DNA of 25,626 nucleotides from a virus: positions 1-25,626 of IMG/VR virus record IMGVR_UViG_3300005581_000114; one strand, written 5' to 3'. The notes beneath the pieces were generated by a model. That model did not search any database. It was not told the origin of the DNA and was given only the letters and a program-made list of their open reading frames with translations. Shown here piece after piece: positions 1 through 11,295 of the stretch. A program made the translations under genes and the position numbers. The stretch's first letter is position 1. Each line of letters begins with the position of its first letter.

Positions 1-654
1 CCGAAACCCGTAAACGTAGTGAGCCAGCAGGCTTGTTTGCCAGAACACGGACGGCTTCACGCTCCCCAGTCGCGGCCATTTGCAGCCGTCCACAACGGAC
101 AGCATCGCCTGAAGTTCAGCGACCGTGACAGGAACCGCTTTGACTCGTCTCTGCTCCTCAGTCCGCGGCCTCAGCAGATTGATCGTTGATTTGCTGACCG
201 TCTCCGGCTTCTGCTTCAGCATTCCTGCCCGAACACACGCCCCGGCCAGCTTGCCGATTGAGCACAAAGCCTTGCAAGCCATTGCCGACGAATTGCCCTT
301 TGGCTGCGCCCGCAAAACCTCAGCATAGCTCCGCAGAATCTTTGGCTGCTCGAGCAAGCTCAGCGGCCTGCCACCCACAACTCGATGCTGCGTGCGGCCC
401 CATGCTTCGAACTTGTCGAGTGCAGCTCGGTTGTCTCTGATCGTCTTGATTGACACTCGTTTCTCCAAGTCACTGGCTGACAGCAGCTCGTTGTACAGAT
501 CCACCAAACTCCGGGACTCGATCACTTCCGGTTTTGCAACCTCAATAACTCGCATCTGCGGTTCCGGAAACACCCTCAGAGGCATCTGGCCCACACAACA
601 CGCATCGAACGTAAACTGAAAATCACTGAGAACTGCGGACATTGCATGACTCAC
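1..654 (-). CDS. int: Tyrosine recombinase (phage integrase), N-terminal part, cut by window edge
   Basis: The frame is open for about 218 codons from the start to the left edge with no stop. Residues 45-135 look like a SAM-like core-binding domain of a tyrosine integrase. The visible part ends in the motif YVYGFR, which fits catalytic box I (the Arg of the TGLR-type motif), so the catalytic domain with the other catalytic residues and the Tyr lies outside the window. It would integrate and excise the phage at an att site. I chose GTG at 654 because AGGA lies 8 bases upstream; ATG at 642 is the alternative but has no clear ribosome site. It is the last visible gene of the early operon, separated from the upstream gene by about 60 bp. 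Family assignment is confident; the specific attachment site is unknown. Confidence 0.85.
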   Translation of the reverse strand, partial: MSHAMSAVLSDFQFTFDACCVGQMPLRVFPEPQMRVIEVAKPEVIESRSLVDLYNELLSASDLEKRVSIKTIRDNRAALDKFEAWGRTQHRVVGGRPLSLLEQPKILRSYAEVLRAQPKGNSSAMACKALCSIGKLAGACVRAGMLKQKPETVSKSTINLLRPRTEEQRRVKAVPVTVAELQAMLSVVDGCKWPRLGSVKPSVFWQTSLLAHYVYGFR

Positions 655-659
655 ACAAA

Positions 660-674
660 GATTCCTATGGAATC
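660..674. promoter_or_regulatory. 15-bp palindrome covering the integrase ribosome binding site
   Basis: GATTCC-TAT-GGAATC is a perfect inverted repeat with 6-bp arms and a 3-bp spacer. On the minus strand it contains the AGGA that would serve the GTG start at 654. It could be a protein operator, or a small mRNA hairpin that hides the ribosome site and limits integrase synthesis. Only the symmetry and position are seen; the function is inferred. Confidence 0.35.
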
Positions 675-715
675 ATCCGTGAGGGTTTCGGCGCTCCGTC
701 CGATGTCTTAACCAA

Positions 716-1120
716 TCAACTGACCTTGATATTGAACGCCGCGGCCACTCGGTCAACTGTGCCCTTCAACGGCTTGTTTGGATCCGCCTGAGTGACCTGT
801 TTGGTTTTCTTCTGCATTTCAACCTGGCATTTCGCGACGACTTTTCCGCAATCTGGAAACTGATCCGTTGAGAGTGCTATTTCCAAAATCGCACGGTTCA
901 CAACCTCTGGCGGAAAGATGCTCAGCGTTGCCAACCACGTCTCGAGCTGATGCGTCGTGAACTGTGCTTGATTTTTAAGTGAGCAGAGCCGTGTCAGAGC
1001 CTCGCCAATCTTCGGACGCATCTCGACCGCTTTGGGCAGCAGCGGCGGCGTCGAAGGCTGCGAAGGCGTCTGCATTGGCCTGCTCTCTGGTCGCCGCTGA
1101 ATGTCGTGGTTTTGTGCCAT
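716..1120 (-). CDS. Hypothetical protein, possible helicase loader
   Basis: A 134-residue protein directly downstream of the replication protein, overlapping its 3' end by 146 bases in another frame. The N-terminal 35 residues are Pro/Gln-rich and probably disordered. Residues 60-100 are helical with the pattern FPPEVVNRAILEIA followed by FPDCGKVVAKCQ, which resembles small phage helicase loaders of the G39P type (a fold in which a short helical domain is followed by a disordered tail). Together with its place behind the replication gene this suggests loading of the host or phage helicase at the origin. The start at 1120 has AAGGGAG 11 bases upstream; ATG at 1024 would shorten the unusual overlap to 50 bases. 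Function is inference from weak similarity and context. Confidence 0.6.
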   Translation of the reverse strand: MAQNHDIQRRPESRPMQTPSQPSTPPLLPKAVEMRPKIGEALTRLCSLKNQAQFTTHQLETWLATLSIFPPEVVNRAILEIALSTDQFPDCGKVVAKCQVEMQKKTKQVTQADPNKPLKGTVDRVAAAFNIKVS

Positions 1121-1817
1121 TGCTGTACAAACTCCCTTGCTGATTCCGATTCTGCCACTGGCGGACAGTCGCCCGCCAGTCCTTCATTGGGTTGCGACCA
1201 ACCCGCCAGCCGTTGCTTTCGTAGTAGTCCCAAAAGCTCCTTGCGTCGACCGTGCTTCCAATCTCCTGCACGTAACCGATGATTTGCTGCACTGTCGGTT
1301 TCTCGAATGCCTTGCTGCGATTCTTTGGAGCATTGACCGAAGCCGCATCCTGTTTCACAACAACTGGGACAGTGGACGCATTCGCGTCCTGTGTTTCTGT
1401 ATTACTATTCTTCTCTTCTCTTCTCTTCTCTGGTAACGCTTTTGTAACGCTGTCACCGTTACATTTGCGTTTCACTTCTCGATGCGTTTCCACCCGTTTC
1501 GCTGATAAAGCCCGTGTTTTGCATGAGTTGCCGTTGTGGCGGTCAAAATTGCAAAAGTGAATACCACCCGTAGTGATGTCGAGCCACCCAACTGATTGCA
1601 GTGCGTCCGCGAAACCTGTAACGCAAGAAATGCGATCTAGTAACGCTGATGTAACGCTGGGAGCGTTACCGTCTCGCGTCTGCTGGTCAGCCCAGATCCA
1701 GACCCGCACCAACTTTCCAACAACCGCATCGGGGTCGATTCCGAGCATGTCAGCGATCTGAAACACTTCCGGCTTGTCTGGAGTCGTGTGTTCAATCTTG
1801 ATCCATTGCGAGGCCAT
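975..1817 (-). CDS. Phage replication initiation protein, DnaD/DnaT-like
   Basis: A 280-residue protein with the layout common in phage replication proteins. Residues 1-95 form a winged-helix-like region (ADMLGIDPDAVVGKLVRVWIW), followed by FDRHNGNSCKTRALSAKRV, a signature seen after that domain. A basic, low-complexity linker covers 100-170. Residues 192-225 (SFWDYYESNGWRV, then DWRATVRQWQNR) match the C-terminal motif of DnaD-type primosome proteins. It probably binds the origin and recruits helicase. The gene contains two clusters of GTAACGC repeats that look like the origin itself, as lambda ori lies in gene O. The stop codon of the preceding gene abuts this ATG. A four-copy TTCTC repeat encodes part of the linker, where slippage would break the frame. 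Confidence 0.75.
   Translation of the reverse strand: MASQWIKIEHTTPDKPEVFQIADMLGIDPDAVVGKLVRVWIWADQQTRDGNAPSVTSALLDRISCVTGFADALQSVGWLDITTGGIHFCNFDRHNGNSCKTRALSAKRVETHREVKRKCNGDSVTKALPEKRREEKNSNTETQDANASTVPVVVKQDAASVNAPKNRSKAFEKPTVQQIIGYVQEIGSTVDARSFWDYYESNGWRVGRNPMKDWRATVRQWQNRNQQGSLYSNGTKPRHSAATREQANADAFAAFDAAAAAQSGRDASEDWRGSDTALLT
1408..1430. repeat. Homopyrimidine/homopurine tract, (TTCTC)4 plus a partial unit
   Basis: Four exact TTCTC units (1411-1430) follow a partial TTC, giving a pure pyrimidine run on the plus strand and a pure purine run on the minus strand. It lies 2 bp from the first iteron cluster and inside the replication gene. A strand-asymmetric tract next to iterons is a feature of lambda-type origins, where it helps duplex opening; here that role is inferred. 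Confidence 0.5.
1433..1462. repeat. Iteron cluster 1 (three GTAACG-type elements, 11-bp period)
   Basis: GTAACGCT occurs at 1433-1440 and again at 1444-1451, then an inverted copy with one mismatch (ACCGTTAC) lies at 1455-1462. Starts are exactly 11 bp apart, so all three sites face the same side of the helix. It is likely a binding array for the replication protein encoded by the surrounding gene. Confidence 0.6.
1618..1669. repeat. Iteron cluster 2 (four GTAACGC elements, 11/22-bp period)
   Basis: GTAACGCA at 1618, GTAACGCT at 1640 and 1651, and an exact inverted copy AGCGTTAC at 1662-1669. Starts are separated by 22, 11 and 11 bp. The last two elements form a perfect palindrome with 8-bp arms and a 3-bp spacer. 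Cluster 1 repeats the same direct-direct-inverted order about 207 bp away. With cluster 1 this is the best replication origin candidate in the window. Confidence 0.6.
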
Positions 1818-2099
1818 TTACTCATCATCCCCGAAAAGATTTCTTTGCGCGACCAAAGGTTTCTTTGCCTCTGGCTGCTCCGTAATCCACGCCTGGAGCT
1901 CCTCCCACGTCTTGACTGGAAGGCTGCTCCTGTGGACCAATGCAGATCCATCACGAGCCGCCAGCCAGAATTCTTCTGTCTCGCCCTGGCGTTCTCCTGT
2001 GACAAGCGAGCAAGTGCCGAGCGTACCGTGGATGATTCCCCGGTCTTGTGCGGTAAAACCGAGCGTCTTCAGCCAGTAAAGTCGTTGGTTGTGGCTCAT
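1818..2099 (-). CDS. Hypothetical protein
   Basis: A 93-residue protein of unknown function between a 65-residue gene and the replication gene. The start overlaps the stop of the upstream gene by one base (TGATG), and its own TAA touches the ATG of the replication gene, so translation is probably coupled. There is no membrane segment or recognisable motif; the middle is rich in Trp (FWLAARDG, KTWEELQAWI) and the C-terminus is short and acidic. The context suggests an accessory role in replication or recombination, but nothing in the sequence shows this. Confidence 0.65.
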   Translation of the reverse strand: MSHNQRLYWLKTLGFTAQDRGIIHGTLGTCSLVTGERQGETEEFWLAARDGSALVHRSSLPVKTWEELQAWITEQPEAKKPLVAQRNLFGDDE

Positions 2100-2296
2100 C
2101 AGAACTCCTTGTGCCCGTCCCAGGCTTTGAGATCGTCATCATTGCCAGCCGTCTCGCTTACCGGCTGATGCTTCTTCCGGCCGAACTCAATCGCTTCTTG
2201 AATCTGCCCGATCGGCAATCGTTCCACGTGAGCAGGCATTTGATAGCCATAGATTGCGTACCACTCATCGTGGAATCGCGTTTTGCGTTTGGTCAT
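2099..2296 (-). CDS. Small hypothetical protein
   Basis: A 65-residue charged, soluble protein with a basic N-terminus (MTKRKTRFHDEW). It shares a 4-base ATGA overlap with the upstream gene and a 1-base overlap with the downstream one. No known domain is visible. It is accepted as a gene because of its place in an unbroken chain of overlapping early genes. Confidence 0.6.
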   Translation of the reverse strand: MTKRKTRFHDEWYAIYGYQMPAHVERLPIGQIQEAIEFGRKKHQPVSETAGNDDDLKAWDGHKEF

Positions 2297-2502
2297 CGAA
2301 TCACCTCCACGCCTTTGACCTTTGCCCTCAGCAACGCAGGCTCTTTCGGATGTCGCAGAATTACTTCCTCGCAGTCCTCAAATTCTGCAGCCTGTGCAGC
2401 GTTCAGGGATGCACGAAGAACGATCAGGTAATCAACTGGCTTGTCTGATGGCCGCTGCGATAACTCCACGTTGCCATCCGGGCCGATGGTGATGCCGCTC
2501 AT
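2293..2502 (-). CDS. Small hypothetical protein
   Basis: A 69-residue protein starting in an ATGA overlap with the stop of the putative annealing-protein gene. Residues 22-65 suggest an alpha/beta fold (VDYLIVLRASLNAAQAAEF, then EEVILRHP). No catalytic motif or membrane segment is seen. Coupling to the recombination gene suggests a partner or modulator, which is only an inference from position. Confidence 0.6.
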   Translation of the reverse strand: MSGITIGPDGNVELSQRPSDKPVDYLIVLRASLNAAQAAEFEDCEEVILRHPKEPALLRAKVKGVEVIR

Positions 2503-3461
2503 GCTGCACCGCCTTTCAGCTCCGCTTGCCGAGCCTGATAGTATGGCCGCACCAGTGACAGCACTTGCTGACTGACGCTGGCTTTCATCGCCGCCAATTC
2601 CTTACCGGCCTCCTCAAGCTTCTCCTGAGTCCTTGCCGCTGCAATCTCATTCCAGACCGATTCCACAAACGTTAGCTGGTCCGGATTGTCACCGAGAATC
2701 TTCCGGATGCGGGTCAGCGAAGGTTCGTGCTTTTCGGTTTCTGATGGCTCAGGCTCGACCGCCACTGGCTGTCGAGGCTCCTCAATCAGCATCGTCTGCG
2801 GCATAACTTCCACTTCGTCCGCCTGATCATCATTCAGAATCGGTGAGACCTTCGTCCACAAAGCCTTCAGAAGCTGCCTGCGGCCCTTGGCAGTGATTCC
2901 CGCCACATTGTCCGACTCATAGCCCGGCAGCCCCAAGGCCATCGCCCCACAGAACTCCACCGCGTATTCCTTGCCACCGTAGGAGCAGGACGCCTTGCCT
3001 TCGACTCTCCAGATTTTCTTGCCTGACTTTCCAAGCGGCACGAACTCAGGATGCCCAACCGAAACCTCTGGCACAATTCCAAGATGAGCAAACAGCGTGC
3101 GAAAGCCTGCTTCCTTCGTGTAGAGCTTTCCGCCGCCCTTGCCGCCGAACACGGCAAACTGATCATCGCCAGGACAGAACCCGCTGAGGATGGCAATCGC
3201 ACAAACCCTGATTCGATCTTCGTCCGTTGGATTATTGGCGAGTTCAACCATGTTGATTCGTGGATCAGTCATCCGCAGCAGACGGGCTTTGATGTTCTCA
3301 TCGGTCAGCGATTCGATTAACTGAATGCGAGCCTCTGCCATCGCAAACGCCGCGTTGATTCGTGATCCATTCTTTGCTGCGTCAATCAGTTCGTTCCGGC
3401 TTGCGTCAATTCGCGTGAGCCAGTCTCCGACCGTGTTGGTTGTAGTAGTGATCGTGCCCAT
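2499..3461 (-). CDS. Putative RecT-like single-strand annealing protein
   Basis: A 320-residue protein in the recombination/replication block. Residues 65-205 carry a pattern seen in RecT/Bet-type annealing proteins: a helical start (VCAIAILSGF), a beta-rich core with KLYTKEAGFRTLFAHLGI at 112-129, a strand pair around 150-168, and a basic helix KGRRQLLKALW at 192-202 in the place of the usual KARTKALGRAL helix. The C-terminal 100 residues are a charged linker and a helical tail. Such proteins anneal ssDNA during phage recombination. The start has GAGG 10 bases upstream, although it overlaps the preceding gene by 76 bases. Similarity is weak, so another ssDNA-binding role (Erf or Rad52-like) is possible. 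A nuclease partner is not obvious nearby. Confidence 0.5.
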   Translation of the reverse strand: MGTITTTTNTVGDWLTRIDASRNELIDAAKNGSRINAAFAMAEARIQLIESLTDENIKARLLRMTDPRINMVELANNPTDEDRIRVCAIAILSGFCPGDDQFAVFGGKGGGKLYTKEAGFRTLFAHLGIVPEVSVGHPEFVPLGKSGKKIWRVEGKASCSYGGKEYAVEFCGAMALGLPGYESDNVAGITAKGRRQLLKALWTKVSPILNDDQADEVEVMPQTMLIEEPRQPVAVEPEPSETEKHEPSLTRIRKILGDNPDQLTFVESVWNEIAAARTQEKLEEAGKELAAMKASVSQQVLSLVRPYYQARQAELKGGAA

Positions 3462-3781
3462 TGTCTTATTGCCTCGATTTCTAAAAAGATTGTTTCGTCG
3501 GTTAATTGTTCAGCGAGCACCTGCACTCGCTGTTCTGATTTGTGCTTCTCAATGTCTCGTTTTGCCTTCTCAATCCTCGCCCGCCACATCGGATGAGTGA
3601 TCGGCTTTCGTTCGTCGTCGCGATATCGTGCGTAAGCATCGACAACGTCATACGTTCCAAGCCCGAGCCAATACGAGTCTCCGGCCGTCGCTCCGCAACT
3701 GCGCTCATTCATGTACCGCCGATTGATGTGCTCACGGTATTCGTGCGACGGCGTAAAACTAATGCAGATAACCTCACTCAT
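3386..3781 (-). CDS. Hypothetical protein
   Basis: A 131-residue protein that starts in an ATGA overlap with the stop of the RuvC-like gene and overlaps the next gene by 76 bases. Residues 85-120 are predicted helical and charged (ARIEKAKRDIEKHKSEQRVQ). The first 60 residues contain many aromatics. No domain is recognised. The codon-coupled start and the neighbouring recombination genes support it being real; its role is unknown. Confidence 0.6.
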   Translation of the reverse strand: MSEVICISFTPSHEYREHINRRYMNERSCGATAGDSYWLGLGTYDVVDAYARYRDDERKPITHPMWRARIEKAKRDIEKHKSEQRVQVLAEQLTDETIFLEIEAIRQWARSLLQPTRSETGSRELTQAGTN

Positions 3782-4221
3782 CGCCCGTTCCTGATCTGCC
3801 TGCAGAACTCGGCAATCAGCAAAGCATCAGCATTAGCGTGAGTGATCTTCACCAATGGCCAGAGCCGCTGTGCAGCCGCCTTACTCACGTTCTTGTTGCC
3901 CTTTGTTAAGCATCGCATGTGCTTCTGCCAAATCTGTGGTCGATACGATTCGTAAGGCACTTGCAACGCTGTCAGGATGCCGATCAGGAAGCCAAATGAC
4001 TTGCCAAATTTGAACGTAGACGATACGCCCTGCTTTGGCATTGCGTTGACTTGCTCGATTACTGCTGCCAGTTCATGCGACGAAGCCAACTCACGAATCC
4101 AGTTTGCCAGTTCGTGTTCTGTGCTGTCGTTCTTGATCCAGCAAACATTGCCTGAGCCGAAGACGACTGCGATTGCACCGGATGCTCCGGGGTCAATTCC
4201 AATCCATGCTGGTGGTTTCAT
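3778..4221 (-). CDS. RuvC-like Holliday junction resolvase
   Basis: A 147-residue RNase H-fold nuclease. The first strand carries IGIDPGASGAIA with D10, the second acidic residue is E56 in AAVIEQV, and the C-terminal helix has HANADALLIAEF with D132; these match the metal-binding acidic residues of RuvC. The run NAMPKQGVSSTFKFGKSFG is typical of phage RuvC homologues. The length is slightly shorter than cellular RuvC (about 170). It probably resolves branched DNA during replication and packaging. It is coupled by 4-base overlaps to both neighbours. No RuvA or RuvB is seen, as is usual for phages. Confidence 0.85.
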   Translation of the reverse strand: MKPPAWIGIDPGASGAIAVVFGSGNVCWIKNDSTEHELANWIRELASSHELAAVIEQVNAMPKQGVSSTFKFGKSFGFLIGILTALQVPYESYRPQIWQKHMRCLTKGNKNVSKAAAQRLWPLVKITHANADALLIAEFCRQIRNGR

Positions 4222-4454
4222 CCCTGCCCCCTCAAAACGCCGCTGCCACTCGGAAGCATCCGCGTTGAATAAACCTTATCTTCCTTCACCCATGTCCCGC
4301 ACGGATCGACCGGACCTGCTGCAATCTTCTCAGCGAGGATCTCGGCCTGTATCCGCTTTTGCTCTGCGATCTCTTCCGCGCTTGGATACTCCTGCGGAAA
4401 GTATCGGCCCGTTGTGTTCAATTTTGCGTCTGCCCGCTTAGTCGATCCTGTCAT
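4218..4454 (-). CDS. Small hypothetical protein
   Basis: A 78-residue charged protein with a helical, Glu/Lys/Ala-rich centre (AEEIAEQKRIQAEILAEKIA, about residues 26-45). It overlaps csrA upstream and the RuvC-like gene downstream by ATGA. No domain or membrane segment is seen. Real by context; function unknown. Confidence 0.6.
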   Translation of the reverse strand: MTGSTKRADAKLNTTGRYFPQEYPSAEEIAEQKRIQAEILAEKIAAGPVDPCGTWVKEDKVYSTRMLPSGSGVLRGQG

Positions 4455-4720
4455 GATTTCCTCCGCATCAGTTCGCCTGGGAGTCGTTCGCCAATTCGGA
4501 TCACTGGCACGAGCGGAGCAATCGGAAACGCCTCCGGATTGAAGCCAGTTTCCTGAATCGCGTCGTGAATCTCCTTGCGATCAATCCGCACGTTCTTAGA
4601 TGCTGTAAAGCCGAACCGTGCGTGGTTAGTTCCGATGGTGTCAACCAGCTTGACGACGATCGTTTCCTCTCCGACCGTGATGATAATTTCTTCTGATACG
4701 GCACGTCTGAGCACTAGCAT
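4451..4720 (-). CDS. csrA: CsrA-family RNA-binding translational regulator, phage-encoded
   Basis: An 89-residue protein whose first 55 residues follow CsrA/RsmA closely: MLVLRRAVSEEIIITVGEET, then strands ending in the signature VRIDRKEIHDAI. L4, R6 and R48 stand where CsrA has L4, R6 and R44, the residues that contact RNA. CsrA dimers bind GGA motifs in mRNA leaders and block or promote translation. Compared with the usual 60-70 residues it has a short insertion (TIGTNHARFGF region) and a 30-residue C-terminal tail ending in Arg/Lys. The start has AAAGGA about 9 bases upstream, itself part of an ANGGA-type CsrA site, so self-repression is possible. A highly structured leader lies just upstream. 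It may control phage or host mRNAs; the targets are unknown. Confidence 0.85.
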   Translation of the reverse strand: MLVLRRAVSEEIIITVGEETIVVKLVDTIGTNHARFGFTASKNVRIDRKEIHDAIQETGFNPEAFPIAPLVPVIRIGERLPGELMRRKS

Positions 4721-4746
4721 TTTGAAGTCCTTTCATTGAGTAAAAA

Positions 4747-4806
4747 CCTGCGAACAGTCTCGGCATGACTGCTAAGAATGCCGAACCCTTGGTGACTGTT
4801 CGCAGG
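4747..4806 (-). terminator. Nested stem-loop followed by TTTTT, 26 bp before csrA
   Basis: A perfect 12-bp outer stem (CCTGCGAACAGT with ACTGTTCGCAGG) encloses a 7-bp inner stem (TCGGCAT with ATGCCGA at 4760-4766/4778-4784). The two are separated by one base on one side and ten on the other. On the minus strand it is followed at once by TTTTTA, so it can act as an intrinsic terminator or attenuator before csrA. It could also be the 3' end of a small RNA. Confidence 0.6.
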
Positions 4807-4814
4807 AGTACAAT

Positions 4815-4888
4815 TCAGAGCCTGCTGGCCTTCATTGGCTTGCGGGGGCCAGCCGTTGAAAATCATTTTTCAATGCAGCAGGCTCTGA
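4815..4888. ncRNA. Candidate structured RNA element: three-way junction
   Basis: A perfect 13-bp outer stem (TCAGAGCCTGCTG at 4815-4827 with its complement at 4876-4888) encloses two hairpins: a GC-rich one (CTGGCC/GGCCAG, 4825-4852, with alternative pairings) and TTGAAAA-TCAT-TTTTCAA at 4856-4873. It lies between the 46-residue membrane-protein gene and csrA and contains no plausible gene. Strand is not certain; the minus strand is expected from the operon. Pairing is seen; being an RNA element is inferred. Confidence 0.45.
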
Positions 4889-4899
4889 GGGAGTAAAAT

Positions 4900-4923
4900 C
4901 CGGTGAACCCTCGCTCTCGCCGG
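4900..4923. other. Third small hairpin of the csrA leader
   Basis: CCGGTGA pairs with TCGCCGG (7 bp including one G-T wobble, 10-base loop), directly after the stop of the membrane-protein gene on the minus strand. With the two larger structures it fills almost all of the 4721-4923 interval. Each structure is bordered by an AGTA on the plus strand. Confidence 0.3.
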
Positions 4924-5064
4924 TTAGTAAGTTGGTGGGTAGTTGTCTCTCGCCCACTTGTTGCCACGCCTGATCTGGCTTCGCTCGTCAGCGAGTTGCG
5001 ATGATCCAGCCGCAAACCACGCCAACACGATCAGTAACGCCGTTGCGATAATTTCATTGAGCAT
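4924..5064 (-). CDS. 46-residue single-span membrane protein
   Basis: A small gene with a strong ribosome site (AAAGGAG, 8 bases before ATG at 5064) and an 11-base overlap with the upstream gene. Residues 4-19 form a hydrophobic helix (EIIATALLIVLAWFAAG), followed by a charged 26-residue tail (ADERSQIRRGNKWARD) ending in PPTY. It is likely anchored in the inner membrane with a short soluble tail. It does not resemble a full holin and has no lipobox Cys. It could be an early host-takeover, exclusion or lysis-timing peptide; the sequence does not decide. Confidence 0.6.
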   Translation of the reverse strand: MLNEIIATALLIVLAWFAAGSSQLADERSQIRRGNKWARDNYPPTY

Positions 5065-5356
5065 TTACCAGTCTCCTTTGCTTTGCCGCCTCGACATGAG
5101 CGTCCTGAGCTTTTTTGATTCGCTCCCGAGCCATCTCACGACGCAGGCATCCGCATGATTTCGTTCCGCCACTCTGAATGCGTGAACGATGGGTGTCAAA
5201 AATCTCACCGCATGAACAACGGCACCGCCAAACCTGATACCCGCCTGCGTTGTCCCATTTTGAGACTGTAAACATGTAACGGATCACCGTGAGCCGCGAC
5301 CCTGCTGGCGGGATCGGTGGTGTTCTTTTTTGCGGTCGTCCGACGCTTGCTGTCAT
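5054..5356 (-). CDS. Small zinc-binding phage protein (SCGCL motif)
   Basis: A 100-residue protein with a Cys cluster: WRCRCSCGEIFDTHRSRI followed by SGGTKSCGCLRRE. The pattern C-x-C-x-CG ... SCGCL is frequent in small phage proteins and next to AP2/HNH modules, and probably binds zinc and nucleic acid. No nuclease residues follow, so it is not a complete homing endonuclease. I chose ATG at 5356 because it forms an ATGA overlap with the upstream stop; a longer reading would invade the upstream gene by 70 bases. A regulatory DNA- or RNA-binding role is likely but not shown. Confidence 0.7.
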   Translation of the reverse strand: MTASVGRPQKRTPPIPPAGSRLTVIRYMFTVSKWDNAGGYQVWRCRCSCGEIFDTHRSRIQSGGTKSCGCLRREMARERIKKAQDAHVEAAKQRRLVNAQ

Positions 5357-5679
5357 GTCTGCTCCTTTGCTGTGAATGTCATCGCTGACTTGCCAGTCAG
5401 CCGACACTGCCTTTCGCCGCACTCAAATGCCAAGCCTCGCTTAACCAGATCAAGCATCCGTTTGCGGTACGTATCCTCCATGCCAGTACATCGCCGCGAT
5501 GTCTCCTGTGCCGCCTCCCGTGCTGTGACTGGCTGGCTCAGTGCCCGCAGAACGGCCCACAACTCTTGCTGATATCGCGGAAGTTCTTTTTCCGCCACAG
5601 CAGCACTTTGCTGCGAAGTAGTTGGGTCAGACTTACGGCTGATCTTTGCGGGGGTGTCGAAGAGGGTTTTCTGTATCAC
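5353..5679 (-). CDS. Winged-helix DNA-binding protein
   Basis: A 108-residue protein with the plan of a family of phage winged-helix proteins: RKSDPTTSQQSA near the N-terminus, a helical region QQELWAVLRAL, the HTH TAREAAQETSR, then RKRMLDLVKRGLAFECGER (recognition helix and wing) and CRLTGKSAMTF at the end. It probably binds phage or host promoters. It starts with GTG in a 4-base overlap with the upstream gene. It is one of three small nucleic-acid-binding proteins at the head of the early operon and a possible ligand for the TGATATCA sites, though nothing proves this. Confidence 0.65.
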   Translation of the reverse strand: MIQKTLFDTPAKISRKSDPTTSQQSAAVAEKELPRYQQELWAVLRALSQPVTAREAAQETSRRCTGMEDTYRKRMLDLVKRGLAFECGERQCRLTGKSAMTFTAKEQT

Positions 5680-5831
5680 GCTTTCCGCCCCTTAAAATAC
5701 TTTGCCGCAATCCGCCACAGCACGCCCTGCCGACTTTCGCCGGTCTTCGCTGATTCATCCGCCAATGGCTTTTGCAGTTCCGGCGGAACACGCAGCAGCA
5801 GTTGGGGATTGCCTTTCAGTTTCTTTGTCAC
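5676..5831 (-). CDS. Ribbon-helix-helix-type small protein
   Basis: About 51 residues from GTG at 5831: a basic start (TKKLKGN), a strand QLLLRVPPELQKPL, then two helices (LADESAKTGESRQGVLWRIAAKYF), a typical ribbon-helix-helix pattern as in Arc/CopG repressors. RHH dimers insert the strand in the major groove of short palindromes. I prefer GTG at 5831 because GAGG lies 8 bases before it. The longer GTG start at 5867 has no ribosome site and lies within a few bases of a stem-loop and T-run. This is the best candidate for a small repressor acting on the operon promoter; this role is inferred. Confidence 0.65.
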   Translation of the reverse strand: MTKKLKGNPQLLLRVPPELQKPLADESAKTGESRQGVLWRIAAKYFKGRKA

Positions 5832-5873
5832 GCCAGTTACCTCGCTGCTTTTTCCCGAATTCTTCACAAAAGT

Positions 5874-5907
5874 GAGGCGGCTGACCTGTGTCCCGTCCAG
5901 CCGCCTC
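5874..5907 (-). terminator. Stem-loop with T-run after the first early gene
   Basis: GAGGCGGCTG (5874-5883) pairs perfectly with CAGCCGCCTC (5898-5907) around a 14-base loop. On the minus strand it is followed by ACTTTTG. It sits 26 bp after the stop of the 80-residue gene and before the ribbon-helix-helix gene, so it may be a leaky terminator that lowers expression of the rest of the operon. Confidence 0.6.
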
Positions 5908-5933
5908 GGTTCTATCGGGCTTGCCGTGGTTCC

Positions 5934-6176
5934 TTAGAAGCTAGTGCGTCCAGTGGCGATCTCGTCGAATGAGTGATCGAAAGAAGAGCCGTCTGTTCCA
6001 AAGCAAACTTTGAACTTGCCAGCTACTCGGCCCTGTCCGGTGCAGTCAATGCTGATGGTCTTGCGTCCGTAGACGTTGCGGCCAAAAACCTGCTTCTGTG
6101 TTGCTGCTGGAAGAACTCCTTTAAATCCGTCAAGGTCGGCCAGTGTCAGGTTAGCGGCGATATCGTACTTTGTCAT
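5934..6176 (-). CDS. Hypothetical protein, first gene of the early operon
   Basis: An 80-residue protein. ATG at 6176 is preceded by TAAGGA at about 9 bases and lies roughly 35 bases downstream of the predicted transcription start, so I reject the longer starts at 6260 and 6218, which would cover the promoter. The sequence is soluble and beta-rich in the second half (TISIDCTGQGRVAGKFKV), with no recognised domain. Being first in the operon and followed by a stem-loop terminator, it is probably made earliest and in largest amount. It could be a regulator or host-directed protein; unknown. Confidence 0.6.
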   Translation of the reverse strand: MTKYDIAANLTLADLDGFKGVLPAATQKQVFGRNVYGRKTISIDCTGQGRVAGKFKVCFGTDGSSFDHSFDEIATGRTSF

Positions 6177-6216
6177 CGTTCTTTTCCTTACCAGTGTTTT
6201 GCGTCTCGGTGCGGGC

Positions 6217-6244
6217 ATGATATCACTATCGGCAAGAGCGTCAA
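6217..6244 (-). promoter_or_regulatory. Sigma70-type promoter of the early operon
   Basis: Minus strand TTGACG (6244-6239), 16-bp spacer, TATCAT (6222-6217). Both boxes differ from consensus by one base. A-tracts lie upstream at 6260-6305 (UP-element-like). The expected start is near 6210, giving a leader of about 35 bases to the first gene. This is the only strong promoter match I found in the window. Confidence 0.65.
6218..6225. promoter_or_regulatory. Candidate operator O1, TGATATCA, over the -10 box
   Basis: An 8-bp palindrome that covers the -10 hexamer of the early promoter. An identical copy lies 34 bp upstream. A repressor bound here would block polymerase directly. Binding protein unknown; the ribbon-helix-helix and winged-helix proteins of the operon are candidates. 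Confidence 0.5.
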
Positions 6245-6251
6245 TGGATGG

Positions 6252-6259
6252 TGATATCA
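6252..6259. promoter_or_regulatory. Candidate operator O2, TGATATCA, upstream of the -35 box
   Basis: A second identical 8-bp palindrome, centred 34 bp from O1 and just upstream of the -35 hexamer. Including one extra base, O1 and O2 form an inverted pair TGATATCAC/GTGATATCA. The spacing of about three helical turns would let bound dimers interact across the promoter. Confidence 0.5.
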
Positions 6260-6348
6260 TTTTGTGAGATTGCGGAAAAGATTTTTTGAAATCGTGTTTT
6301 TATTGGGCTTTCTGATCAGCATGACGGCCGAACGGCTCGCGGCGGGCT

Positions 6349-6402
6349 AAAACGCAGTGAGCCGCACCCGATCGGATGCGGCTCTTCCCAGACTGCGTTT
6401 TT
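6349..6402 (-). terminator. Terminator of the late operon, probably bidirectional
   Basis: AAAACGCAGT (6349-6358) pairs with ACTGCGTTTT (6392-6401), and an inner 7-bp stem AGCCGCA/TGCGGCT (6360-6366/6377-6383) lies inside. T-runs follow on both strands. It begins 26 bp after the stop of the last late gene on the minus strand. The rest of the 6177-6427 interval holds the early promoter and no gene. Confidence 0.75.
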
Positions 6403-6427
6403 GCGGGTCATGACGCCGCTGCCGTAA

Positions 6428-6919
6428 CTATGATTTCCACGCCACCGCGTAAGTGTCTCGCCAGTGTTCATTGCCGCTGACTTCGATCTGCACAAATCCT
6501 GCGTAGTGCAGTTCCTCGGCCAGCTCATCTTGGCTGATGTTTCCGTAATGCTCATCGACCTGCAATGCCCCGCCGTCGAATGCTGAGTGGGGATCTCTGC
6601 CGGGACCGCCGCACGTGATCAGGATTCGACCGCCCAGCTTCAGCCAGTTCGCCGCGTGTGTCAGGATCTCGCCCCAGTTCGGTGCGTGCTCGAATGCCTC
6701 GCAGCAGATCACAAGATCGACCAACTGTGCCGGAACGTAATCCGTTGCATCGCACACAACGTCGACTGCTGGGCCTGCGATGAGATCAAGGCCGATCCAT
6801 GTGGCTCCGGGAAAGTGTGCCCGAACACTGCCGTTGATGTCGCGGCTGCCAACTTCAATCACGCTGATTGCGTCACGTGTCGCATACCGCCCAACAAATT
6901 CAAACGCGCCGGGGTGCAT
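6428..6919 (-). CDS. Class I SAM-dependent methyltransferase
   Basis: A 163-residue Rossmann-type methyltransferase. Motif I is VIEVGSRDINGSVR (20-33), the acidic end of strand 2 is WIGLDLIAGPAVDVV (41-55), and LVICCEAFEHAPNW (69-82) corresponds to motif IV as in small phage and cell-wall methyltransferases. LKLGGRILITCGG follows as strand 5. I chose ATG at 6919 because AGGGAG lies 5 bases upstream; longer starts would overlap the upstream gene by up to 122 bases, against 20 here. It is the last gene of the late operon, next to two glycosyltransferase-like genes, so a sugar or protein substrate on the virion or host surface is more likely than DNA. Substrate not visible. Confidence 0.75.
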   Translation of the reverse strand: MHPGAFEFVGRYATRDAISVIEVGSRDINGSVRAHFPGATWIGLDLIAGPAVDVVCDATDYVPAQLVDLVICCEAFEHAPNWGEILTHAANWLKLGGRILITCGGPGRDPHSAFDGGALQVDEHYGNISQDELAEELHYAGFVQIEVSGNEHWRDTYAVAWKS

Positions 6920-7619
6920 GGCATCTCCCTGAATTGCAAAACCTTGACGTGAGCTTATTCCCATCCGGCCGCCAGGAGTTGCTGTCGTTGGCCGTCGCGA
7001 AGTAGTTCGCGTTTTCTTCATCCAGATTCGTCGGGTCGAGATACCAGGGCATGTGGCGGGCTGTGTATGGCTCGCCGGTTCTCAGTGTCGGCATCCCTAC
7101 AACTCGCGTCGCGAGCGATACGGGAAGTGATGCCGGATACATACAGAGCGTCGTGTCAATCGGTGCTCGATAATACTTGCCGCCAACAATCGGTGATCTC
7201 CAGAAACGTCGCTCCCAGTTCACAACGTCCGTTTGCCAGCTTGGCAAATCATTGATTCGCAGGCTTACTCCACACTTCTTGATTCCGCAGGTTCCACGGA
7301 CGCAGCTGGTTAGCGGTGCACGAAGCACTTCCATGAGATCGGACGGCACGCCGTCCAAGTCGAGATCGCAGTCAGTGACGCAGTAAAACCCATCGTTCGG
7401 CCTTCCCGTCGCTCCGCATTTCCACGGGGCATGGTGGCCCATGTTCTCGGACAATCGAATCACCTCGAATGGGCAGTGCTGATACCAGTCCAGCAACGGC
7501 TCCCACGTCGATGCGTTGTCGATGATGACCGGAACAGCGTTGTCGAGTGCTGCGATCTGCTCACAAAGTCTGCGCGTGGTAGTCAGCCGGTTGAATGTGT
7601 TCACATAGGCTGGTGTCAT
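6900..7619 (-). CDS. Glycosyltransferase, GT-A family 2-like
   Basis: A 239-residue protein starting directly with a GT-A fold: the first strand and PVIIDNAST (30-38) replace the usual nucleotide-binding start, FEVIRLSENMGHHAPW follows, and the acidic motif VTDCDLDLDG (81-90) provides the metal/nucleotide-sugar Asp residues. No membrane segment is present, so it acts in the cytoplasm. It has an ATGA overlap with the upstream gene and overlaps the following methyltransferase. Donor and acceptor are unknown; with its neighbours it may glycosylate virion proteins or modify host glycans. Confidence 0.75.
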   Translation of the reverse strand: MTPAYVNTFNRLTTTRRLCEQIAALDNAVPVIIDNASTWEPLLDWYQHCPFEVIRLSENMGHHAPWKCGATGRPNDGFYCVTDCDLDLDGVPSDLMEVLRAPLTSCVRGTCGIKKCGVSLRINDLPSWQTDVVNWERRFWRSPIVGGKYYRAPIDTTLCMYPASLPVSLATRVVGMPTLRTGEPYTARHMPWYLDPTNLDEENANYFATANDSNSWRPDGNKLTSRFCNSGRCHAPRRV

Positions 7620-8797
7620 TCAAACCCCCTCGCTGCTTTCCAAGCTGTCCATTCCGGCTCAACGTGCTCCGCAAAATAGCCGTGATTCAAAACCGATGAC
7701 GGCACAAGATCGTGGAAGATGCAGGCAGAATCTGAGAACTGAAATAAATGAGATGGCACGTATTCCACAATCCACCGATTATCTTCCTTCCATGTCCAGT
7801 CTCGCTCGAATAACTCTTTAGCTCGTGCCCACCAAAAAGAACCCGCGAAAAAGAAGTCGCCCGGCTTTTTCTTGACCAAAGGAGTTTGCGACCGCATCAC
7901 ACCGCACGTCGAATGACTCGCCAGGGCATCCTCTACAGATGGCAGATCCATGTTGGCCGCCCACATGATTTCCGCCCACTTTTGCTCCACGGCATCGAGT
8001 GTTTTTGTCACGCCCTTTGTGTGAGCCCGGAAGATAATCGCGTTCGGGTCATTGGTGTGCAGCAGGCTCAGCATTTCCAAGTGGGTCAGTGTTTCGGCCA
8101 ACTTGTTGTTATCCGCTCGCAGCCAATGGTCAACGCGAATGCCATCAAACAACGCCTGCACCTCTTCAATCGTTGCTGTGTTCTTGTCGACTCCCACGCC
8201 GATGACGATCCGACCGTTGAACTTGTCCTGATGCTTTCTGATCTGCTCAATGTGCCAATGCCAGTTCCACTCCTTGCCCTTCAGCGGATACAAATGAAAC
8301 ATCAGGCTTCGAGCCGGATTCACTAGCGGCCTGTATTCGTCTCGATATGCCGACCACTTCCCGAGCGGACACGATGACGAACGAGGCTTGACCTTCAGAG
8401 TCAGATTGCACCCGCAGCCGCCTTTGGTGTCGTCGCACCATCCATCGTTGTTCAGCGGACAACTGGCACAGATTGCAGATCGATGGGCTTGCTGTTCGTC
8501 TGTGGCTACGCGCATTCCGTCAGCGAGGAAATTGACAGCAGCATTCTTGAGGCTCACGACGCGATCGACGGCGCGGGATAATGCTGATTTCTGTTTGCAG
8601 GTTGTGCATGGCTTGCGGCATGATTTCGCAACAGCCTTGACTGGTTTTCGCTTAGGCTCCTTCGGTGCCCACTTTTGACCTGCCAGCATCGCGTCAATTC
8701 GCGGCTTATTTTCGCGACAAATCATCTGGTGAGTTTTTTTCAATGCGATATTTCGCACCGTGCAAAATCCAGATAGTTCGCACTGGCAATCACTCAC
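7616..8797 (-). CDS. Cys-cluster protein with C-terminal glycosyltransferase-like domain
   Basis: A 393-residue protein. The N-terminal third has three Cys groups: C4/C6/C12/C27, C60/C64/C67 and C110/C113/C121/C128/C130/C143 (AICASCPLNNDGWC and GGCGCNL), which probably bind zinc or iron-sulphur. From residue 165 to the end there is an alpha/beta domain (FHLYPLKGKEWNWHW, NGRIVIGVGVD, AIIFRAHTKG) that resembles capsule-type glycosyltransferases acting on polysaccharides; no clear DxD is seen. Translation starts at GTG, 11 bases after a GGAG, overlapping the 50-residue membrane-protein gene by 8 bases. Located after the tail fibre candidate. The fusion of a Cys cluster with a transferase domain is unusual; the assignment of the second part is moderate. 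Confidence 0.6.
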   Translation of the reverse strand: MSDCQCELSGFCTVRNIALKKTHQMICRENKPRIDAMLAGQKWAPKEPKRKPVKAVAKSCRKPCTTCKQKSALSRAVDRVVSLKNAAVNFLADGMRVATDEQQAHRSAICASCPLNNDGWCDDTKGGCGCNLTLKVKPRSSSCPLGKWSAYRDEYRPLVNPARSLMFHLYPLKGKEWNWHWHIEQIRKHQDKFNGRIVIGVGVDKNTATIEEVQALFDGIRVDHWLRADNNKLAETLTHLEMLSLLHTNDPNAIIFRAHTKGVTKTLDAVEQKWAEIMWAANMDLPSVEDALASHSTCGVMRSQTPLVKKKPGDFFFAGSFWWARAKELFERDWTWKEDNRWIVEYVPSHLFQFSDSACIFHDLVPSSVLNHGYFAEHVEPEWTAWKAARGFE

Positions 8798-8942
8798 GAT
8801 TTGCGTTCTCCGTTAATCTGGCAAGGTCATTTTTCCACGACTGTACCGCATGATCTCCGCTGGCTGCCGCAAACTCAGACCATCCATGCACAATAAACTG
8901 TGCGACAACAGCCAGAAACAAAACGCCGATCAGTCGTAACAT
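8790..8942 (-). CDS. 50-residue single-span membrane protein
   Basis: ATG at 8942 overlaps the stop of the large Cys-rich gene by one base (TGATG), and its TGA lies inside the start of the next gene. Residues 1-18 form a hydrophobic helix (MLRLIGVLFLAVVAQFIV), followed by a charged soluble tail (SWKNDLARLTENANRE). No lipobox Cys is present. Its late-operon position after the tail genes is where small lysis proteins (holin, spanin) often lie, but one span and 50 residues do not decide. It fills what would otherwise be a 144-bp gap. Confidence 0.6.
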   Translation of the reverse strand: MLRLIGVLFLAVVAQFIVHGWSEFAAASGDHAVQSWKNDLARLTENANRE

Positions 8943-10858
8943 CAGCAGTTGCTTTCCAGTTCGTAGACCGTCACATCTGAAATCTGATACCCAAAAGGAT
9001 TGCCCGACGTAAATCCGTCGATGACATCCAAAATCGCAGGGCAGTCACACGTCACAGTGTACGCGAGCTGATACCACGTTGTGGGAGTGTCGCCCTCTAG
9101 CCACCGGTAGTATATGCAATAAGTGCATCCGATACACTCGCAAACAAGGATCACCTCTAACGTGTCCTCGCGCGTTCCGCCCATTGGCAGCGGAAATGTT
9201 CCAGAGACGCTGCCACGATATCCGGGGAACGCACTAGGTGACCACGGCTCGCAACTGATTCCATCTTCGTCCTGCATTCCGTAGTAGAGCAAAAACTCTC
9301 TAGCCGCCGAGCCATGCGTGCCGTTGCCTGATGACCAAAGCAGTCGCAATGTTTCGCCCATGGGACGACCGCAGATGCAATCACCGATTATGGGAGGTAT
9401 TTCCTCGCAGTCACACTGCTTGCATCTGACCTCAATCAGGTCGCCATTCGGCAGCGTTACGCTAGCCGACAAATCCGCACAGCCGGTGACTGCAACTGGC
9501 TCCTGCTCCTCGCCGTCAGCGGTCAGCGTGATAACACACTCACCAGTGTACTGATCTCGGCCCAGCGCAATCGACAGATCGTAATAGCCGACCGTGCCTT
9601 CCCAGACCGGCGGATCACAAGGATATGATGTATCGCAAATCTCACCCGCGACAATATCGCCGCTGTACGGAGTAATTGTCACGCACAAGCAATCACACGA
9701 GCACCGGCAATCCCCGCAAAAAAAATCATTGCAGCCCGTGTCAGGATCAACAATCAACGCCAATTCTCGTGGCTCGTGCTTGCTCCAGCTCAACGTGCCT
9801 TCGAGATATGCCGTCGCCACTGCCACCGTGCCGCTCGGATCTCGGCAGCTTGCCCCCTCGTAGCAGTTCGCGCGATAAACTTCCTCGTCGTCAAGAGTGA
9901 CGATGTACTCGCATTCGCCGAACTGAGGTATCGGGGACCGAACCATCACAACCCGAAAGCCGATGTCGTTTCGTTTCGTCGTTTCGGCAATCAGCGTGCG
10001 GCTTGCTGATCTGCATTCCGCAGCAGTAGAATTCCAGCCGCCACCGCGAATGACCTGATCACCGGCAGAACCGTCTGCTCTTGAGTTTTGCGCCCACTCC
10101 CAGACGTTGCCGTGAGCGTCGACAAGGCCCTGAGCATTAGCCGGTTTGCCGCCCACATCGTGAGTTTCTGCCGCGCTGTTTGTAACAAACCAACCATTGT
10201 CTGGAAGGTCCGCAGAATTTGCCCCGAAGTTGTAGGCTGTCGTTGTTCCAGCTCGGCAAGCAAACTCCCATTCCGCTTCCGTTGGCAGCCGATAGGACCG
10301 TCCCATTAGGATTTCAGCAGGCAACGCCGACAACGCCGTGCAAAATGCCTGAGCATCCGCGTAAGACACTTTTTCAACTGGCCTGCCGCTGCCGCTAAAA
10401 TGACTTGGACTCAATCCTCGCACAGTTAGGTACTGCGATTGCGTGACCTCAGTTGTACCGATCACGAATTCATCGACACTTGTTGAGACCTCAGTTTCGT
10501 CGGCATCTCGCCCGGTTTCCGATCCGGGGCTGCCCATCGTGTATGTGCCTGCTTCGATCAGGGCGAACGGCATCCCGATCGAATTGCTACTGACTGGCGG
10601 AGTGATGTCCGGGAGGATTTCGCGTTCCCAGTACGATACAAACGCATGGCCGCCAACCGTGCCTGTCCATGATGTTCCGGCGAATGTCGCTGAACCGTAG
10701 GAGATGCCGTCTCCGTAGGTCTCCCATTCAAGACAAAGCTTGCAGGGCAACGTTCCGCAGCATTGATCAGCCGGAGCCGTGTCGCAAGTTTCAACCGTGA
10801 ATTCTGCACAAGGTTTCAGTCGCGTTGGCGATGCTTTGCGAAGATAACGCGGAGGCAT
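8942..10858 (-). CDS. Cys-rich virion protein with inserted FGE-sulfatase (formylglycine-generating enzyme fold) domain
   Basis: A 638-residue protein, probably a tail fibre, baseplate or receptor-binding protein. Residues 95-306 are an FGE-sulfatase domain: IEAGTYTMGS, TTEVTQSQY, PVEKVSYADAQAFC, YRLPTEAEWEFACR, DAHGNVWEW, VIRGGGWNS and DIGFRVV occur in family order. Of the two Cys of true FGE only C282 is present; the first is S277, so oxidase activity is unlikely and binding is more likely. FGE folds serve as receptor-binding lectin domains in some phages. Around it lie three Cys-rich repeats (each with a W/Y-x-G-x-V motif at 64, 419, 547 and clusters such as CGDCRCSCDCLC). The FGE domain interrupts the first repeat. 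I chose ATG at 10858 (TGATG overlap) over an upstream reading that covers the previous gene. Confidence 0.75.
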   Translation of the reverse strand: MPPRYLRKASPTRLKPCAEFTVETCDTAPADQCCGTLPCKLCLEWETYGDGISYGSATFAGTSWTGTVGGHAFVSYWEREILPDITPPVSSNSIGMPFALIEAGTYTMGSPGSETGRDADETEVSTSVDEFVIGTTEVTQSQYLTVRGLSPSHFSGSGRPVEKVSYADAQAFCTALSALPAEILMGRSYRLPTEAEWEFACRAGTTTAYNFGANSADLPDNGWFVTNSAAETHDVGGKPANAQGLVDAHGNVWEWAQNSRADGSAGDQVIRGGGWNSTAAECRSASRTLIAETTKRNDIGFRVVMVRSPIPQFGECEYIVTLDDEEVYRANCYEGASCRDPSGTVAVATAYLEGTLSWSKHEPRELALIVDPDTGCNDFFCGDCRCSCDCLCVTITPYSGDIVAGEICDTSYPCDPPVWEGTVGYYDLSIALGRDQYTGECVITLTADGEEQEPVAVTGCADLSASVTLPNGDLIEVRCKQCDCEEIPPIIGDCICGRPMGETLRLLWSSGNGTHGSAAREFLLYYGMQDEDGISCEPWSPSAFPGYRGSVSGTFPLPMGGTREDTLEVILVCECIGCTYCIYYRWLEGDTPTTWYQLAYTVTCDCPAILDVIDGFTSGNPFGYQISDVTVYELESNC

Positions 10859-11295
10859 CAGTCGCACTCCGGCTGGGCACAAAGGTCGTCGATGATCCAT
10901 TTTGGCGTACACGCACCGGTTAGCGGGTACATGTAGGTGGCTCGGCCTGTCGTTCCAACCAAGTCCTGCGGAGTCAATCCGTAAAGGTAATTGCAGATGT
11001 CGTAGACATAATAATCGCCACCATATTCCGCCCCCGGTGGCGTGCCAGTGCAGCTCAGATTGTACCACGTCGCAGTGGCCACCAGCGTCGTTTCGGAAAC
11101 GTAGTCAGTTTCAGGGCAAAGAACATCGGTGATTGTAAACCAGATTGTGTGCCCGCCGCCCGAACCTCCGCCTTCTCGTTGCTGCCAACGCCCTCGCACC
11201 TGAGCGGGATTCATCATTCGACGCATAACCTCACGAGCAATCTTTTTGTATTGCTCTGCGCCTTTTGCGTCGAATCCAACTACAGGATCTGACAT
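10858..11295 (-). CDS. Hypothetical tail or baseplate protein
   Basis: A 145-residue protein directly upstream of the FGE-domain protein, overlapping it by one base. A charged helical start (AEQYKKIAREVMRRMM) and a Gly-rich hinge (EGGGSGGGH) precede a beta-rich, Tyr/Thr-rich C-terminal part with five scattered Cys. The Cys and Tyr content resembles the repeats of its neighbour, suggesting the two assemble together at the tail tip. No known family is recognised. Confidence 0.65.
   Translation of the reverse strand: MSDPVVGFDAKGAEQYKKIAREVMRRMMNPAQVRGRWQQREGGGSGGGHTIWFTITDVLCPETDYVSETTLVATATWYNLSCTGTPPGAEYGGDYYVYDICNYLYGLTPQDLVGTTGRATYMYPLTGACTPKWIIDDLCAQPECD

Follow-up and report, generated by a model that had tools for sequence, protein, structure and literature searches.

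The early promoter and its twin palindromes

The stretch of viral DNA discussed here, referred to as the window, comprises 25,626 nucleotides. Its main genes are located on the minus strand and are read from high to low coordinates, with terminase, portal, protease, capsid, and tail genes followed by a methyltransferase gene (the structural gene names were read from the open reading frames, and terminase alone was searched). After these genes and the promoter that is the subject of this analysis come small early genes, up to a RuvC-like resolvase (phrog_1770) and others. The features of the region are the following.

6349 to 6402, minus strand: terminator-like hairpin (stem 6384-6359), separating the methyltransferase gene (6428-7021) from the early promoter
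6252 to 6259, no strand: TGATATCA as the distal palindrome, spanning -49 to -42 relative to the inferred +1
6239 to 6244, minus strand: -35 hexamer TTGACG, present as TTGACG in 47 of 47 informative loci found through the ribbon-helix-helix (RHH)-like protein
6218 to 6225, no strand: TGATATCA as the proximal palindrome, spanning -15 to -8 and sharing bases with the extended -10
6217 to 6222, minus strand: -10 hexamer TATCAT, with TGA directly before it (extended -10)
6210, minus strand: transcription start, inferred from the -10 spacing
5934 to 6176, minus strand: gene that opens the early operon, coding for 80 aa without a known family, part of a variable place
5676 to 5831, minus strand: RHH-like protein, 51 aa, starting with GTG, leading candidate for reading the twin operator
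5353 to 5679, minus strand: winged-helix protein, 108 aa, phrog_1123, rival regulator

An earlier note on this DNA proposed that a TTGACG-16-TATCAT promoter drives the early operon and that identical 8-bp palindromes, 34 bp apart, cover its -10 box and lie just upstream of its -35 box. The promoter sequence (TTGACG at 6244-6239, a 16-bp spacer, and TATCAT at 6222-6217, minus strand) and the positions of both palindromes were confirmed. Between positions 1 and 9000, this promoter is the sole sigma70-type match, and shuffles of the same region average 4.0. The inferred start at 6210 also agrees with the position given in the note. The two copies of TGATATCA, at 6218-6225 and 6252-6259, are 34 bp apart from start to start. 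A check of the flanking sequence for other copies, as the note had suggested, gave no further exact copy in the window; the relatives carry the twin (see below).

Located at -49 to -42 and at -15 to -8, the palindromes constitute inverted repeats inside the core promoter of the operon. The distal palindrome matches no promoter element and is contained in a nearly invariant block, AAAATGATATCACC, and the proximal one doubles as the extended -10. Moreover, once the proximal site is reverse-complemented, it has ATGATATCACYA in common with the distal site, which gives two inward-facing copies.

Taken alone, the twin palindrome is weak. When the window was shuffled 200 times, a pair of identical 8-bp palindromes 20-70 bp apart arose in 22 cases, and the pattern by itself therefore corresponds to only about p = 0.11. 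Near-copies of TGATATCA (at most one mismatch) are not enriched in the window (11 versus 7.65 expected, with 15 of 100 shuffles reaching 11). Terminator-like matches overall in the window analysis are likewise not above shuffles (12 versus 10.1); a simple terminator-hairpin pattern was matched in 19 records, and at least 300 bp upstream are present in 42 of 47. The case for the twin rests on the relatives.

Conservation of the promoter in uncultured relatives

The viral contigs were searched with the DNA pattern TGATATCA-N7-TTGAC-...-TGATATCAT, and the 43-bp arrangement is present in 46 other contigs with identical spacing throughout. Operator conservation in related phages was one of the points at which, according to the earlier note, its proposal could fail; the arrangement is kept. 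No contig of the bacterial and archaeal genome collection matched a slightly stricter promoter pattern.

Palindrome-free anchors were used as a check on the palindrome-based search. The leader anchor GAGACGCAAAACACTGGNAAGGAA, located downstream, identified 20 contigs, all 20 with the twin and all within the 46. The -35/spacer anchor CATTGACGNNNNTNCCGATAG gave 60 matches, of which 42 are in the module context and have both palindromes, while the remaining 18 have unrelated surroundings and were treated as chance. Within the 47 records (950,468 bases, five records being covered only to 20,000 bases), TGATATCA occurs at 101 sites, with 9.7 expected in all. Ninety-four of these are in twins and seven elsewhere, which argues that the twin is a once-per-record device. 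A scan for twins with loose spacing returned at least 120 stretches; screened loci lacking TTGAC in the right place, many of them AT-rich-looking, were dropped as chance.

In 49 aligned modules (34 unique), the stretches -53 to -40 (with one change, in locus L289), -36 to -29, and -21 to -7 are invariant, and the bases between them are mostly variable. Most of the aligned rows were picked for their palindromes, and the unbiased figure is therefore that of the RHH-anchored set discussed below.

Conservation of this kind might also be due to protein coding, as an open frame (MISPSIDALADSDIMP...) runs through the promoter and, from the distal ATG, enters the window's first gene without a stop codon. 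In 25 of the 47 records, however, the frame stops after 22-35 codons, the changes at variable codons are mostly replacements, the third positions within the palindromes are unchanged in 21 unique sequences, and locus L291 carries a 1-bp deletion. Coding was therefore rejected as the explanation of the conserved block and has next to no chance of being correct.

Among isolated phages, neither the promoter region nor the RHH-like protein has a match, and terminase matches are below 60% identity only. A literature search with TGATATCA gave nothing relevant among the matches listed, as judged by titles and the beginnings of abstracts.

The 51-aa protein and its link to the operator

As determined by tblastn, the gene for the RHH-like protein is present in 46 of the 47 promoter records, and the exception, G018, ends 122 bp past the start of the twin. 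Twenty-nine records extend more than 5 kb downstream. The RHH gene is found in every one of these, compared with 28 for the winged helix, 26 for the c1 protein, and 18 for a CsrA homologue. The RHH match is situated ~245 to 1,069 bp from the twin start across records, i.e., operator and gene are at most ~1.1 kb apart.

The reverse search, in which viral contigs were screened with an RHH alignment, returned 49 loci. Two of these (L283 and L293) are uninformative and were left out, since their contigs begin 62 bases and 1 base, respectively, before the RHH match. The twin is present in all 47 loci that reach far enough upstream; it is perfect in 46 of them, and the proximal copy is intact in all 47. 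Two loci that the DNA pattern had overlooked were recovered in this way. In L289, the distal site reads AGATATCA and the surroundings are much changed (62 of 98 bases). Here, the RHH gene is the first gene, ~35 nt past the inferred +1, with nothing before it. In L291, one base is lost between the distal site and the -35 box, giving a spacing of 33 instead of 34 bp, which indicates that exact phasing is not needed.

A third anchor is a recT-like protein. Of 16 loci identified with it, 10 have both RHH and twin and six have neither; for these six relatives, the records were searched whole, and no RHH and no twin were found. If 6 kb or more of upstream sequence is required, 13 loci remain, nine with both and four with neither. 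Fisher's test for RHH versus twin gives 0.00012 for the 16 loci and 0.0014 for the 13, values that flatter the case because the sequences are related. On the basis of these comparisons, RHH is the one gene that is strictly tied to the operator. Being at most ~1.1 kb apart, operator and RHH could nonetheless be co-inherited without interacting, and the relatives are not independent.

One of the recT relatives without the twin, L128, has a promoter bracketed by two GTATAC sites (L128:14039-14088) directly before a small basic protein. The GTATAC-bracketed promoter was considered as a conserved architecture and rejected, as its only occurrence in the viral contigs is its own.

With respect to the protein itself, pN/pS is 0.08 (pN 0.023, pS 0.288; 32 distinct gene sequences from 47 loci, one of the 48 RHH-matched loci having failed the length filter). 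The sequence comparison thus indicates that purifying selection acts on RHH. Residues 6-12 (KGNPQLL) and R14 are invariant over 16 aligned rows. In the predicted single-chain model (mean pLDDT 74.5), helices at 17-30 and 34-46 follow an N-terminal stretch, and no N-terminal strand is formed. Foldseek ranks 1-5 are Arc, AvtR (three chains), and a VapBC chain, with a best E of 0.66, and VIA-align gives Z values of 3.9 to a VapBC chain and 3.5 to Arc. Arc and VapB are RHH proteins. AvtR is described as one, too (PMC5569661). There is no Pfam match, and no RHH protein, Arc included, is among the PDB sequence matches. With weak fold matches and no sequence match, the name RHH is likely, not proven, and the modeled fold assignment is weak. 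The 51-aa candidate nevertheless combines a two-helix pattern with weak RHH fold neighbors and does not resemble an HTH protein. The RHH sites of MetJ and Arc are contiguous, and the 34-bp center spacing of the twin is wider than that, a point against the RHH reading.

The earlier note suggested that control may rest on one of the small RHH or winged-helix proteins. The first part of this suggestion stands, as RHH is strictly tied to the operator and is, judged from sequence, most likely the control protein. The case for the winged-helix protein (5353-5679) as the reader of the palindromes would be that its predicted model is a clear winged helix with many DNA-binding regulators among its weak fold matches (best E 0.014), and that its gene is present in 28 of the 29 long records. 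It is missing in the remaining one (G016, the record of L120), where the operator is intact. Moreover, the copies in 18 other records are only 32-56% identical to that of the window and have indels between the helices, while the operator is nearly constant. The gene can also be up to ~3.4 kb from the twin, compared with at most ~1.1 kb for RHH, which comes first in L289. Collectively, this makes the winged helix a very unlikely reader, and this part of the suggestion is weakened.

Another view is that a host protein reads the palindromes, or that the region is a plain strong host-adapted promoter, and that RHH co-occurs by descent. Much of the proximal palindrome coincides with the extended -10, and its conservation may therefore be promoter conservation. 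Moreover, a single operator variant was seen. The distal copy, on the other hand, fits no sigma70 element, yet it is nearly as conserved as the -10. RHH is also the sole gene that is always kept, though the intervening genes and the distance to the twin vary, and both RHH and twin are absent from the six recT relatives. We consider the host-factor view unlikely.

Proposed autorepression and related systems

Our preferred reading, which we regard as probable from the sequence data, is that the locus is the strong main early promoter of an uncultured tailed-phage group and is autorepressed by its own 51-aa RHH-like product. In this scenario, the host RNA polymerase would fire TTGACG-16-(TG)A-TATCAT at once on entry. 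The transcript would carry one to four small accessory genes (none in L289) and then the gene for the RHH-like protein. As RHH dimers build up, they would occupy both TGATATCA palindromes through the inward-facing ATGATATCACYA copies. With the proximal copy over the -10 and the distal one over -49 to -42, either would exclude polymerase, the early operon would be shut off, and the early burst would end. The late genes, which in the window are located upstream behind the terminator-like hairpin, would be read from elsewhere. We infer that transcription starts at this site, that the protein is an RHH protein, that it binds the palindromes, and that binding results in repression.

The interpretation offered in the earlier note is partly supported. 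Its observation that there is no recognizable CI or Cro agrees with the search for HTH_3 (PF01381, CI/Cro-type), which gave no match in the window record and a match in one of 18 records tested. Its "minimal immunity system" is not supported. Lysogenic immunity would mean that RHH keeps a prophage or plasmid-like form repressed and confers superinfection immunity. A protein that represses the main early promoter would indeed also stop a second phage that carries this operator. F55, an archaeal virus protein, has a role in the lysogeny of SSV1. It is an RHH protein and a gene-specific regulator (PMC5569661), and in this respect it favors the immunity view. Against this view, matches to tyrosine integrase (PF00589) and serine recombinase (PF00239) were found in 0 of the 18 records, which are mostly fragments (two of them, G012 and G033, have terminal repeats). 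Furthermore, no contig of the genome collection carries the promoter pattern, and an RHH-alignment scan of the genome collection revealed no relative among the 80 candidate stretches listed. RHH is also situated inside the operon to be repressed, and no separate maintenance promoter stands out at 1-9000 of the window. A temperate life of the phage group is unsupported by these sequence searches, and we judge lysogenic immunity to be quite unlikely. Transient early expression with self-shut-off most likely fits better.

How does the proposed autorepression compare with known systems? Arc of phage P22 is a small phage RHH repressor that acts at the promoter of its own operon. P22 is a temperate phage, and Arc acts beside the immunity gene mnt. 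The candidate resembles Arc in being a small phage protein for which Arc is the first, albeit not significant, Foldseek match; the temperate setting and the Mnt neighbor of Arc are points of difference, and Arc is not among the PDB sequence matches. SvtR, AvtR, and F55 of archaeal viruses are likewise virus-coded RHH proteins, and SvtR represses its own promoter, which makes it an archaeal-virus RHH autorepressor; these proteins act at archaeal promoters (TATA/BRE) with other operator sequences (PMC5569661).

Similar in layout is the RegP576 regulon of p576 and other clade II pLS20-family plasmids. There, an RHH repressor controls strong promoters that have operators on one side or on both, with transient expression of establishment genes after entry into a new cell (PMC8708921). 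The operators bracket the promoter in our case as well, with the reservation that the RHH assignment of the candidate is weak. RegP576 serves conjugative plasmids and several target promoters, in contrast to the phage with one twin per genome described here. The p576 authors describe comparable phage repressors as HTH proteins (PMC8708921).

The acr-aca operons (Aca1-Aca10) share the overall design: inverted repeat(s) over the core promoter, accessory genes, and a gene for a small DNA-binding repressor (PMC9410906 and PMC9410881, the latter describing Aca10). Their promoters have one or two inverted repeats, one of which is always in the predicted core promoter (PMC9410906). The position of the repressor gene after small accessory genes is matched here in 46 of the 47 records, while repression by RHH is predicted. 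A difference is that the ten Aca families are described as HTH proteins in these sources, whereas the phage candidate looks like an RHH protein. No bacteriophage RHH-type Aca was found in literature joining anti-CRISPR and Aca with ribbon-helix-helix, phage, and repressor, as far as the available text of those papers goes. Should RHH prove to be the reader, one autorepression logic would serve early operons of phages with two unrelated DNA-binding folds.

The first-gene place in the early operon is variable. In the 46 records, it is occupied by 15 unlinked small-gene families (no blastp links at E 1e-3; the ORFs were chosen automatically and the families counted by hand), and the family found in the window is shared only with G012. 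Representatives of 10 of the 15 families gave nothing above the Pfam family cut-offs, and nine first-gene proteins together with RHH gave nothing above cut-off against NCBIfam. No family match thus marks any of these proteins as an anti-CRISPR.

Tentatively, and with more doubt than confidence, this place can be viewed as an anti-defense slot of a widespread uncultured phage group, in which an RHH-type counterpart of Aca would let the rotating small genes be expressed after infection and then silence them. If so, the fifteen slot families would be candidate inhibitors of host defense, and the promoter-RHH pair could be used as bait for finding more such genes. In archaeal viruses, an early-promoter method finds anti-defense genes (PMC11065993). 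With the combined DNA-plus-protein bait, genes that many uncultured phages probably express first can be located. Such genes are otherwise anonymous, and host-takeover and anti-defense functions are likely to be found among them. The operator-repressor pair is testable in a laboratory strain, i.e., without the phage's own host.

Several further observations concern the early region and its surroundings. Between the promoter and the first gene, a second leader type is present in 15 of the 47 records (L187:6720-6785, minus strand, and 14 others). The one example of it that was folded has two hairpins. A single example of the other leader type was folded as well, and neither of the two did better than its own shuffles. 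A tiny conserved protein with the core TIRNLQARIIYAQHDGNHAEVLRLKKELE is encoded directly before RHH in G033 (~+270 from the twin start); it is present in 22 of the 29 long records and was not found in the window. The CsrA homologue mentioned above (4451-4720, minus strand; Pfam E 2.4e-10) is possibly a phage-coded post-transcriptional regulator in the early region. At +390 to +8064 from the twin start, the early region of 24 records encodes a helicase-like protein, and that of 17 records a DNA-methyltransferase-like protein (both names read from the ORFs); both are absent there in the window record. Finally, in the tail region of the window, 8942-11068 (minus strand) encodes a large protein, a stretch of which reads like a formylglycine-generating-enzyme/sulfatase-modifying domain.
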